Source of the DNA: Wenzhouxiangella sp. 15190
GTDB taxonomy: Bacteria > Pseudomonadota > Gammaproteobacteria > Xanthomonadales > Wenzhouxiangellaceae
Assembly: GCF_003417465.1 (NCBI RefSeq)
Contig: NZ_QVMV01000008.1
Span: 1 to 64,000 of the forward strand
Length of the DNA: 64,000 bases
Direction: 5' to 3'
Shown here: positions 13,048-61,953 of the stretch, one piece after another
Layout of the letters: the number at the start of each line of letters is the position of its first letter
How positions within the stretch are numbered: the stretch's first letter is position 1
Translations under genes and position numbers: made by a program
Notes under the pieces: model-generated
Databases searched by the model: none
Seen by the model: only the letters and a program-made list of their open reading frames with translations
What the model was told of the DNA's origin: nothing

Positions 13048-14652
13048 CTACAGTCTTGCCTGAGTGGCGTCGCTCGGGAACGCGGCTTTGACATCGTAGA
13101 TGACATGGCGCGGCTGGGCCAGTGCTTTGATGGCCTGGATGCCTTTCTCGATGAAGCAGTCGTGGGCGACGGCGATGACGATGCCGCCGTAGGTGCCCGC
13201 CTGTGGTGTGTCGACCAGTTCCATGCCGTACTCGTTCCGGGCGAATTCGGCGTCGACCCAGGGATCGTGGAGGTCGACATCGATGCCGTAGGTCTGGAGT
13301 TCGTGGACGATGTCGACCACGCGCGTGTTGCGGATGTCGGCGCAGTTTTCCTTGAAGGCCAGGCCCATGACCAGCACGCGGGCGTCGCGGGTGTCGATGT
13401 CCTTGCGGATCATGTGCTTGACCAGCTCGCCGGCGATGTAGCGACCCATGCCGTCGTTGATGCGGCGGCCGGCCAGGATGACCTCGGGGTGGTAATCGAC
13501 GGCCTCGGCTTTGTAGGTCAGGTAATAGGGGTCGACGCCGATGCAGTGGCCGCCGACCAGGCCGGGGCGAAAGGGCAGGAAGTTCCACTTGGTGCCGGCG
13601 GCTTCCAGGATTTCGCTGGTGTCGAGGTTCAGCCGGTTGAAGATCAGCGCCAGTTCGTTGACCAGGGCGATGTTGAGATCGCGCTGGGTGTTTTCGATGA
13701 CCTTGGCGGCCTCGGCCACGGCGATGGAGCTGACGCGGTGGGTGCCGGCCTGGACGACGCTGTTGTAGAGCGCGTCGACGAATTCGGCGGCTTCGGGGGT
13801 GCTGCCGGCGGTGATCTTGACCACGTTGCGCAGGCTGTGGGCCGTGTCGCCGGGGTTGATGCGTTCGGGGCTGTAGCCGACGTGGAATTGTCGTTTGGTC
13901 GTTTCGTCGTTTGGTCGTTTTGAAGTTGGCTCGCCTGCGGCTTTGCCGGTTTCGTTAGTTGGGCCGTGCTGGGTTTCGGCGTGGGAGGTCCCGGCTCTTC
14001 GCTGCGCTTCGGCCGGGACGACAGAGGGTTCGGGGGTGCGAGGTCCCGGCTCGGAGGCCGGGACGACACGATGGTCGGGTTCTGTCGTCCCGGAAACGCC
14101 GGAGGCGTTATCCGGGATCTCGCTTCTGTTCGTCGGGCCGTGCTGGGTTTGGGCGTGCGAGGTCCCGGCTCTTCGCTGCGCTTCGGCCGGGACGACAGGA
14201 GTGTCCCAGGCGCATTGGAGGCCGCTTTCGTTTTCCAGGATGGGGACGCAGACTTCCTGGGTGCAGCCGGGGTAGACGGTGGCTTCGAAGATGACGATGT
14301 TGCCGGGCTGCAGGTGGGGTGCGATTGTCTTGCAGGCGTTTTTCAGCGGCGCCAGATCGGGTCGTTTCTGGCGGTCGACCGGCGTGGGGACGGCGACGAT
14401 GTAGACCTGGCAGTCGGCCAGGTCGTCGGCGTCGGCGCTGAAGGTCAGCTGCGTGGCGCCGGCCAGCAGTTCCGGGGTGACTTCGCGCGTGGCGTCCGCG
14501 CCCGCCTGGAGCTCGCTGACGCGGCGGGCGTCGATGTCGTAGCCCAGGGTGGGCTGGCGTTCGCCGAAGGCGATGGCCAGTGGCAGGCCGACGTAGCCCA
14601 GGCCGATGACGGCGATGCGGGCTTGTTCGGGGCTGGGAAGTTCGGTGTTCAT
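13048..14652 (-). CDS. tviB: UDP-GlcNAc/GalNAc-type 6-dehydrogenase with a ~104-residue repeat-derived insertion
   Basis: The product is a nucleotide-sugar dehydrogenase of the TviB/WbpO/WbpA type, which oxidises UDP-N-acetylhexosamine to the uronic acid using NAD. From the ATG at 14652 it has 534 residues; relatives are about 425. Visible motifs are VIGLGYVGLP (15-24), VPTPVD (88-93), SPERINPGD (261-269), AGTKWNFLPF and catalytic Cys370 in GLVGGHCIGVDPYY. The extra residues (about 152-254) fall between GLQCAWD and FHVGYSPERINPG, where relatives have a short loop, and are translated dispersed repeat. The frame is open throughout and all catalytic motifs survive, so activity is plausible. A longer frame to 14757 exists but lacks family similarity. 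Confidence 0.8.
   Translation of the reverse strand: MNTELPSPEQARIAVIGLGYVGLPLAIAFGERQPTLGYDIDARRVSELQAGADATREVTPELLAGATQLTFSADADDLADCQVYIVAVPTPVDRQKRPDLAPLKNACKTIAPHLQPGNIVIFEATVYPGCTQEVCVPILENESGLQCAWDTPVVPAEAQRRAGTSHAQTQHGPTNRSEIPDNASGVSGTTEPDHRVVPASEPGPRTPEPSVVPAEAQRRAGTSHAETQHGPTNETGKAAGEPTSKRPNDETTKRQFHVGYSPERINPGDTAHSLRNVVKITAGSTPEAAEFVDALYNSVVQAGTHRVSSIAVAEAAKVIENTQRDLNIALVNELALIFNRLNLDTSEILEAAGTKWNFLPFRPGLVGGHCIGVDPYYLTYKAEAVDYHPEVILAGRRINDGMGRYIAGELVKHMIRKDIDTRDARVLVMGLAFKENCADIRNTRVVDIVHELQTYGIDVDLHDPWVDAEFARNEYGMELVDTPQAGTYGGIVIAVAHDCFIEKGIQAIKALAQPRHVIYDVKAAFPSDATQARL
13890..14201. repeat. Repeat cluster inserted in frame in the UDP-sugar dehydrogenase gene
   Basis: This stretch of 312 bp (104 codons) contains four GTCGTTTB octamers (13890-13921), then two 71-bp direct copies (13954-14024 and 14128-14198). 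Each copy ends in a GAGGTCCCGG...CCGGGACGACAG palindromic unit. Between them are a shorter unit (14038-14067) and one opposite unit (14082-14123) with the GGAAACGCC/GGCGTTATCC hairpin. Identical units occur between genes in the rest of the window. On the minus strand it reads as two copies of VVPAEAQRRAGTSHA separated by IPDNASGVSGTT. Confidence 0.8.
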
Positions 14653-17017: not shown

Positions 17018-17020
17018 TTT

Positions 17021-17076
17021 GGTTGGCTTGTTGGCTGGTTCGCTAGTTCGCTGGTTCGCTGGTTCGCCGGTTAGCT
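17021..17076 (+). repeat. Octamer array, seven GGTTCGCT-like units
   Basis: Seven 8-bp units without gaps (GGTTGGCT, TGTTGGCT, GGTTCGCT, AGTTCGCT, GGTTCGCT, GGTTCGCC, GGTTAGCT) begin three bases after the GGDEF-EAL stop. No facing array follows, so this is a half element of the composite family. Confidence 0.9.
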
Positions 17077-17139
17077 GAGTCTGTCGCTTCAGAAGCGCCG
17101 TGAGGCATTATCCGCAGCCTTGAGTTTTAGGGTGGCGAC

Positions 17140-38073: not shown

Positions 38074-38257
38074 CGTTCGCTGGTTCGCTTGTTTGCTGGT
38101 TGGCTGGTTCGGCATCTGCGCGGGATGGAGGGCAGCTACGCTGCGATACGCCGGACAAGCCCGATGCCTTGCCCCTGATTGAACTCGGCTTGGCCGCCCC
38201 GCACCACCTTCGGTTGCCGAACCAGCCAACAAGCAAACCAGCTAACAAGCCAACAAG
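38074..38257. repeat. Composite inverted octamer element, complete copy
   Basis: A forward array of five units (38074-38113, last unit GGTTCGGC) faces a reverse array of five (38216-38255, first unit GCCGAACC). Between them is a weaker core, GGGCAGCTACGCTGC, near 38128. The element fills the gap between rnpB and prmB and ends about nine bases before the prmB ATG. Confidence 0.85.
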
Positions 38258-43901: not shown

Positions 43902-44040
43902 GGTTAGCTTGTTGGCTCGTTGGCTCGTTTGCTAGTTCGGCATTCCAATTCTTTGCGGGACGGCTGCGCCGTGCGGTCTCCGCGGCACCCGGATAACCTT
44001 GGGCAGCTAACCAGCCAACCAGCCAACCAGCCAACAAGTT
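43902..44040. repeat. Composite inverted octamer element, complete copy
   Basis: A forward array (43902-43941: GGTTAGCT, TGTTGGCT, CGTTGGCT, CGTTTGCT, inner edge AGTTCGGC) faces a reverse array (44005-44036: AGCTAACC, two AGCCAACC, AGCCAACA). The core GCGGGACGGCTGCGCCGTGC lies near 43957. The element occupies the gap between rfaH and glmS and touches the rfaH stop codon. Confidence 0.85.
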
Positions 44041-46488: not shown

Positions 46489-46605
46489 CGGTGGTCGGTG
46501 GTCTGTTGTCGGTAGTCTGTGGTCAGTAATCTGAATCAGACCGCAGACCACAGACAACAGATAACAGACCACAGACCACAGACCACAGACCACAGACCAC
46601 AGATA
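46489..46605. repeat. AGACCACA-type octamer inverted array, long copy
   Basis: Forward units of the GTGGTCTG type (46489-46531) face at least eight units of the CAGACCAC type (46537-46603), five of them perfect and contiguous. The array begins three bases after the etfA stop. Translated, it reads TDHRPQTTDHRPQ. Confidence 0.85.
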
Positions 46606-53572: not shown

Positions 53573-53703
53573 TGTTGGCTGGTTGGCTTGTTAGCTTGTT
53601 GGCTGGTTCGGCAACTGCTGAACTTGCGGGGCGGCTACGCCGCGAAGAGATCGCGAGTAACCGACACTATTGCCGAACCAGCGAACCAGCGAACCAGCGA
53701 ACC
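53573..53703. repeat. Composite inverted octamer element, complete copy
   Basis: A forward array of five units (53573-53612, last GGTTCGGC) faces a reverse array of four (53672-53703, first GCCGAACC, then three AGCGAACC). The core GCGGGGCGGCTACGCCGCG lies near 53628. It covers most of the gap between the oxoprolinase start and the DUF99 stop. Confidence 0.9.
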
Positions 53704-53731
53704 ACTCGTCCGTCGTAGGTGTAAACGATCC

Positions 53732-54977: not shown

Positions 54978-55120
54978 TGTTGGCTGGTTGGCTTGTTTGC
55001 TTGTTATCTGGTTCGGCAACCGGCCGTTTTTGCGGGGCGGCTTCGCCGCGGCAGGATGGCGGGCCGCCGATACTTTGCCGAACCAGCGAACCAGCGAACC
55101 AGCGAACCAGCGAACCAGTT
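54978..55120. repeat. Composite inverted octamer element, complete copy
   Basis: A forward array of five units (54978-55017, last GGTTCGGC) faces a reverse array of five (55077-55116, GCCGAACC then four identical AGCGAACC). The core GCGGGGCGGCTTCGCCGCG is perfect at about 55032-55050. The element separates the divergent phosphatase and Lhr-type genes. Confidence 0.9.

Positions 55121-61779: not shown

Positions 61780-61953
<174 letters not shown>

Follow-up and report, generated by a model that had tools for sequence, protein, structure and literature searches.

Here, we describe a block of dispersed repeats that lies in frame inside a tviB-type nucleotide-sugar dehydrogenase gene of Wenzhouxiangella sp. 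15190, in a window of 64,000 nucleotides (nt) that forms part of contig C52 (NZ_QVMV01000008.1) of a 3.13-Mb genome in 55 contigs. We suggest, at a probability of roughly 0.8, that the repeats entered a surface loop of TviB in frame and that the enzyme tolerates them, likely as a translated, disordered loop. Judged from the sequence, the 104 inserted residues would be made and kept in the protein; we infer that they are tolerated without effect, and likewise the route by which the DNA arrived.

The tviB gene and its repeat block

The tviB frame runs uninterrupted on the minus strand from an ATG at 14652 to a stop at 13048. The encoded 534-residue protein exceeds the cut-off of TIGR03026 (NCBIfam). 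Its top NCBIfam match is NF011729 TviB (E value 1.8e-157), at 524.5 bits under the equivalog cut-off of 592 for that model, and its closest named relatives, by best segment in public genomes, are the enzymes of Wenzhouxiangella sediminis (70%) and W. limi (69%). The insert comprises residues 151-254, encoded in codon register by 13891-14202. It is preceded by the N-terminal UDPG_MGDP_dh domain and followed by the central and C-terminal domains (Pfam), and it occupies a loop position, with the helix CVPILENESGL on one side and the strand FHVGYSPER on the other. The residues E, D, K, R, Q, N, S, T, P, G, H and A make up 92% of the insert compared to 65% of the rest of the protein. Among other long frames over the block, a 272-residue frame on the plus strand is without Pfam domains, which lie in the minus-strand tviB frame.

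An earlier note on this DNA had placed an in-frame repeat block at 13890-14201 in an intact dehydrogenase gene, and its coordinates, frame and repeats are confirmed, including the four octamers and the four palindromic units, which have the form TGTCGTCCCGG...CCGGGA(C/T) (Table 1). The two direct copies that it described are also present, at a length of 78 nt instead of 71 bp; they are 91% identical and enclose units 1 and 4.

Table 1. Features of the tviB gene and tandem arrays, in window positions
Feature	Position	Strand	Remark
tviB-type nucleotide-sugar dehydrogenase gene, 534 residues, host of the insert	13048..14652	-	open reading frame and profile matches
Four tandem octamers, CAAACGAC type, variants GTCGTTTG/C/G/T	13890..13921	-	coding for the end of the loop
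GGCAAAGCCGCAGGCGAGCC (GKAAGEP) piece	13928..13947	-	common to G022
Direct copy A, 78 nt	13947..14024	-	
REP block extra versus the gene of the sister species, 255 nt (85 codons), between TGCGCCTGG and ACCGGCAAAGCC	13951..14205	-	G022/G003 comparison
Palindromic unit 1, TGTC tag, 8-bp outer stem	13988..14023	-	
Palindromic unit 2, short-loop form	14043..14068	-	
Palindromic unit 3, opposite orientation, extended stem	14083..14118	+	
Direct copy B, 78 nt	14121..14198	-	spacing to copy A 174 = 58 codons
Palindromic unit 4	14162..14197	-	
Tandem arrays	17020-17077, 38075-38111, 44004-44035, 46537-46603		
Tandem arrays, continued	53674-53704, 55079-55118, 61780-61830, 61905-61952		

A search of its own genome with the block gave 60 matches at E ≤ 1e-3, the block itself among them (40 of 78 first-look candidates were scored), and the core 11-mer CCGGGACGACA, at no more than one mismatch, occurs 18 times in the window compared to a mean of 2.06 and a largest count of 8 in shuffled sequence. 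Thus, the block represents a dispersed repeat family and not a chance arrangement. A stricter unit pattern, run on the window and on stretches fetched around the block matches, gave 77 matches in 40 clusters, with one palindrome at L178 counted on both strands. Exact matches to the octamer pair, partly overlapping, number 13 in this genome, at seven places, and 0 in three relatives (reversed-pattern control: none in this genome and three in G022, a sister species). Of the six places outside tviB, three (C30, and C35 twice) also have matches to repetitive extragenic palindromes (REPs) next to the pair. Two of the three matches to the insert peptide elsewhere in the genome hold stop codons (both on C48), and the third (C16) sits in a frame without a Pfam match. 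Because intergenic-style repeats of these kinds occur elsewhere in the genome, the block looks like an intergenic-type cluster that is now inside a gene. A 10-mer count was not used as evidence: it gave 108 versus 77 for the reversed control here, and in four relatives the controls were about equal or higher.

The palindromic units resemble the CGTC super-family of REPs, which carries a CGTC or TGTC/CCTC tag outside a stem of 8-9 bp. In four of four units, TGTC precedes an 8-bp outer stem, GTCCCGG(C/A)/(G/T)CCGGGA(C/T). The units are also dispersed as in that super-family, with many adjacent units in opposite orientation among the 77 pattern matches. However, the 8-bp arms are separated by 6 nt in unit 2 and by 16 nt that include inner pairs in units 1, 3 and 4, so that the loops exceed the 4-5 nt of the CGTC families (Di Nocera et al. 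2013; PMC3733652). Moreover, the super-family has A-T pairs at stem places 1-2, whereas the first pair of the tviB units is G-C or G-T; an A-T first pair is found in only 8 of the 77 pattern matches, those reading TGTCATCCCGG. Because of these differences in loop and first pair, we name the units CGTC-like and do not place them in a described family.

The 312 bp had been read as one insertion. In-frame repeats do fill this span, but only 255 nt (13951-14205) are missing from the gene of the sister species G022 and G003. Neither sister has the REP block in this gene: the empty site reads TGCGCA-ACCGGCAAAGCC in G022 and TGCGCGTGGAATCAA-ACCGGCAACGCC in G003, and the extra 255 nt in this genome keep the reading frame. 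GKAAGEP, which follows the REP block, is common to G022, where it is followed by another octamer, of the AACCAGCC type. Since GKAAGEP and a repeat tail already exist in G022, the block is not one insertion, and the empty-site comparison resolves it into layers, namely an enlarged loop that the family already had, an older piece, differing octamers and the REP block. An xAxGEP-like piece (window 13928-13947; loops at L104, L106, L105, L213 and L215) recurs in both repeat-bearing clades and, by eye, is not present in G001 or in the 14-member short-loop clade. This piece may be what is left of an older insertion that these loops once shared.

The loop in related genomes and in-frame units in dnaE2

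The earlier note had proposed to compare close orthologues for presence or absence of the repeat. The closest orthologues are without the palindromic block. Loop lengths were compared over the span matching residues 135-269 of this protein (P0001). Among 70 loci that do not bear the name Wenzhouxiangella, a non-random sample obtained by scanning with a peptide pattern, the segment is 30 residues long in 68, the other two containing N; two loci named Wenzhouxiangella were kept apart. Within the genus, it measures 36-53 residues in 16 of 18 loci, compared to 135 residues in this genome and 165 in G023, and four more loci of the family have 41, 44, 67 and 72 residues. A family-level search for the enzyme matched 21 of 43 genomes at E ≤ 1e-30. 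In all 22 family loci read, a set outside which the matching loci of G036 and G037 lie, the segment has at least 36 residues.

Five of these 22 family loci have loops that we class as built of repeats: those of this genome (G000), G022, G023, G041 and G042. The loop of this genome combines CGTC-like REPs with octamers. That of G023 consists of one GTAG-type REP in reverse and six in tandem, each of the six measuring exactly 48 bp; the unit, GTAG-GTCGGGG-TCGCAT-CCCCGAC, has the GTAG tag, a stem within 5-13 bp and a loop within 2-20 nt, as GTAG-tagged REPs do, and it is present in high copy, the block having 193 matches in the G023 genome. The loop of G022 is built of CAGCCAAC octamers; their pattern is matched 64 times in that genome, twice within this loop, and the control gave 0. 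In G041, the loop contains TTCAGGG heptamers, with 20 pattern matches in the genome, three of them in this loop, and none for the control (matches overlap within arrays). In a tree built from the enzyme core without the loop, the repeat-loop label needs three changes, at least two of which are forced by well-supported branches. Therefore, repeat loops arose or were swapped more than once; alternatively, the loop may have grown once, long ago, and its contents may have been replaced afterwards. G023 also has very large clusters of GTAG-type REPs (L105:1925-2330; G023:C1:2150950-2159446), with a run of several kb at fairly regular spacing.

A second host gene came from a survey for coding inserts of block-like clusters in Pfam-recognised genes, which covered frames of at least 150 residues in ∼182 kb of fetched stretches and in the window. 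In 24 such frames, a unit lies at least 90 nt from either end. All 23 besides tviB were scanned against Pfam; four matched a family, and only dnaE2, which encodes an error-prone polymerase (L177:2604-6155 = G000:C26:146303-149854), has domains on both sides. Its two in-frame units are preceded by the PHP domain (positions 259-373 in the frame) and followed by the NTPase domain (576-831), and they share the codon phase of the tviB units. Of 30 genomes of the genus that were searched, 29 had a match (paralogues included), and 23 orthologues were aligned with the query. DnaE2 of this genome has three repeat-rich linkers; across the orthologues, these sites measure 17-71, 9-124 and 14-109 residues, leaving aside the empty rows (one at site 1, three at site 3), and hold mostly different, often tandem-repeated peptides. 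At site 1, a closely similar REP-coded peptide is present in G022 and a shortened form in G003 and G021; therefore, this DnaE2 insert is older and has been kept in frame through speciation.

The other matched frames were rejected as hosts. In the patatin-like (L176:2985-4118), M28 peptidase (L184:11062-13074) and 60-kDa inner membrane protein (L186:13516-15429) frames, the units precede the conserved part and are, therefore, probably 5' leader and not coding. The start codons of these three frames may be mis-called if the long frame is taken. A 514-residue frame at L168, considered as a second in-gene copy, has no Pfam match and by eye overlaps a short-chain-dehydrogenase-like frame on the opposite strand.

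Tolerance of the insert and rival explanations

The AlphaFold2 model of the protein has a mean predicted local distance difference test (pLDDT) score of 82.9, and 369 of its 534 residues score at least 90. The structural check proposed in the earlier note gave the outcome expected of a loop: the only segment under 50 is residues 163-245, within the insert, and the core is mostly above 90. Likewise, in the model of the G023 protein residues 170-281 score below 50 and the core mostly above 90. Thus modelled, the insert is probably disordered next to a confident enzyme core, and its low-confidence excursion suggests a position at the surface. The modelled core aligns with the UDP-ManNAc dehydrogenase of P. 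horikoshii (4r16_A) at Z 39.3 and a root-mean-square deviation of 2.3 over 401 residues; such structural neighbours confirm the dehydrogenase fold and no more. The 534-codon frame is intact and, as had been claimed, conserved motifs are kept: every invariant column of a 53-sequence alignment is present in P0001, by definition, including G368-H369-C370, K317, N321 and D374. We take C370 to be the catalytic cysteine in this enzyme family. Lineage-specific changes here and in G022, counted against three outgroups, are 31/31, 26/25 and 22/22; tviB evolves no faster than the gene of its sister. Frame, conserved residues and evolutionary rate support, at the level of sequence, a working gene.

We suggest a scenario in which ordinary intergenic-type repeats, namely TGTC/CGTC-like REPs, partly in opposite orientation, and a tandem octamer, would have entered the loop in frame. 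They would have arrived by the route of the intergenic copies, i.e., by REP transposition or by recombination and slippage between repeats, and the REP block would later have been duplicated internally. The loop would have been longer in the family beforehand and would have taken up or replaced different repeats several times. The block would most likely be translated as a polar, disordered loop of ∼104 residues that is tolerated by the enzyme. Selection would purge insertions that break frame or fold, with the TviB loop and the DnaE2 linkers as the survivors.

Several points weigh against this scenario. An open frame alone is weak evidence: shuffling the insert 5000 times left its frame free of stops in 834 cases, and two of the three forward phases of the real insert are open. 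At 38 other clusters, 27 of 228 frames are open over 312 nt, compared to 4 of 6 each at tviB and dnaE2; these numbers favour coding but, skewed by coding flanks, are only mildly supportive. The 48-bp period of G023 is a multiple of three, as are two of the six periods of other arrays (L134-L139: 45 and 42, the rest 47, 46, 53 and 47, none of them shown to be coding) in a comparison of short-period arrays that left out those of longer or mixed period, and it is weak evidence for coding. The loop of G042 is merely heptamer-like, with three exact pattern matches in the genome and none in this gene, and is the weakest of the five cases. The octamer pattern of G022 is present also in G000, G003 and G042, and the heptamer pattern in five of five genomes searched; because the short motifs are common to several species, what differs at the loop is the choice of repeat and not the repeat itself. 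The insert RNA folds better than 100 of 100 shuffles (z −4.1), and this strong fold could slow translation. Finally, in the core compared to G022, nonsynonymous divergence (dN) is 0.161 and synonymous divergence (dS) 0.404, and the ratio of ∼0.40 indicates moderate constraint.

A bolder reading, which we hold with considerable reserve, is that the TviB loop and the DnaE2 linkers are recurrent entry points that capture and swap the repeats of each species and thereby supply new disordered segments. Such entry points would arise by targeted insertion or by repeat-to-repeat recombination seeded by an old insertion, for which the xAxGEP piece would be the trace.

It is improbable that the insert is functional, in that the loop would be kept for changing the enzyme, through regulation or complex formation, or that an mRNA hairpin would tune translation. 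The lengthened segment in every family locus read, the strong mRNA fold and the reuse of the same site would all fit such a function. However, the loop varies from 14 to 143 residues in the family and is made of unrelated repeats, with neither sequence nor length conserved and no conserved peptide beyond the short xAxGEP piece in some, and neutral tolerance is the simpler account of this pattern. We consider it highly improbable that tviB is a decaying gene or pseudogene and that the repeat fell into sequence already released from selection: the moderate dN/dS would agree with decay, but the intact frame, the retention of all invariant positions, lineage-only changes equal to those of G022 and in-frame inserts in several species do not. 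Least probable of all is a duplicated stretch mis-joined from intergenic copies during assembly, as could happen with a repeated element in a genome of 55 contigs, since the join is in frame at both ends, the direct copies differ at 7 of 78 positions, and independent assemblies, that of G023 being a single contig, have other repeats at the same loop.

Tolerated in-frame repeats in one loop, as we favour, would make this family a natural series for asking whether selfish or junk repeats become protein, with empty, octamer, heptamer, GTAG-REP and CGTC-like-REP versions of the same loop; dnaE2 adds a second gene with a shared, diverging insert. Tolerance, expression and effects on activity could be measured side by side in one family. 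The findings also serve as an annotation warning that such repeats can be truly coding in this family.

Known systems and other repeats of the genome

Repeats within genes have precedents. Di Nocera et al. (2013; PMC3733652) describe the GTAG and CGTC REP super-families and state that some REPs lie wholly within genes, dnaE2 included. Over half of these intragenic REPs are dimers or groups coding for 20-30 residues, clusters code for 43-82 residues, and a location in loops or linkers is a likely reason for their tolerance. They also mention one same-site case, recB in two Xanthomonas, report no dedicated transposase for CGTC REPs and assign RPE-4 and RPE-6, two Rickettsia palindromic elements (RPEs), to the CGTC-tagged REPs. 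A paper on R. japonica (PMC3767692) debates whether the RPE-4/6/7 sites are insertion hot spots. In view of these published REPs and RPEs, the tviB insert joins an already known class.

Like the REPs in PMC3733652, the repeats here are short palindromes with a tag that occur clustered and as pairs in opposite orientation; most are intergenic, and some lie in frame wholly within genes. Compared to them, the REP block of 85 residues (104 with the rest) and the 143-residue loop of G023 are larger, the host is a nucleotide-sugar dehydrogenase, and one loop is used by both REP kinds as well as by octamers and heptamers. RPE-1 to RPE-7 are in-frame palindromic repeats in conserved genes at the same site of orthologues (PMC3767692, PMC3733652), and the tviB insert follows this mode, being in frame in a conserved gene, at a putative surface loop and absent from outgroups. 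The likeness to Rickettsia elements drawn in the earlier note, thus, holds up, and the placing of RPE-4 and RPE-6 in the super-family that the TGTC units resemble agrees with it; we claim it for the mode of action alone. The host group differs, and many genes are affected in Rickettsia versus two found here in the surveyed part. We found no account of a repeat-filled dehydrogenase loop in a literature search that did not extend to the supplementary gene list of Di Nocera et al. Against what these sources describe, the filling of one enzyme loop by both REP kinds and two sorts of tandem repeats in related species, and its larger size, stand out.

The window also encodes a REP-associated tyrosine transposase (RAYT; NF047646, 28436-29005, plus strand), flanked by eye on both sides by GTAG-type palindromes, GTAGGATGCG...CGCATC. 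RAYT and flanking palindromes form a classic REPtron that is unrelated to the tviB repeats: as in REPtrons, the transposase has its own GTAG repeats, whereas tviB carries TGTC units. Because its flanks differ from these units, the RAYT is not shown to move them.

This genome is notable for its many tandem arrays of short motifs, 7 or 8 bp long, among them TGGTTCGC, CAGCCAAC, CGAACCAG, CAGACCA, GGTTTCC and CCGTAAC. Some of these motifs occur also in the coding loops of relatives.
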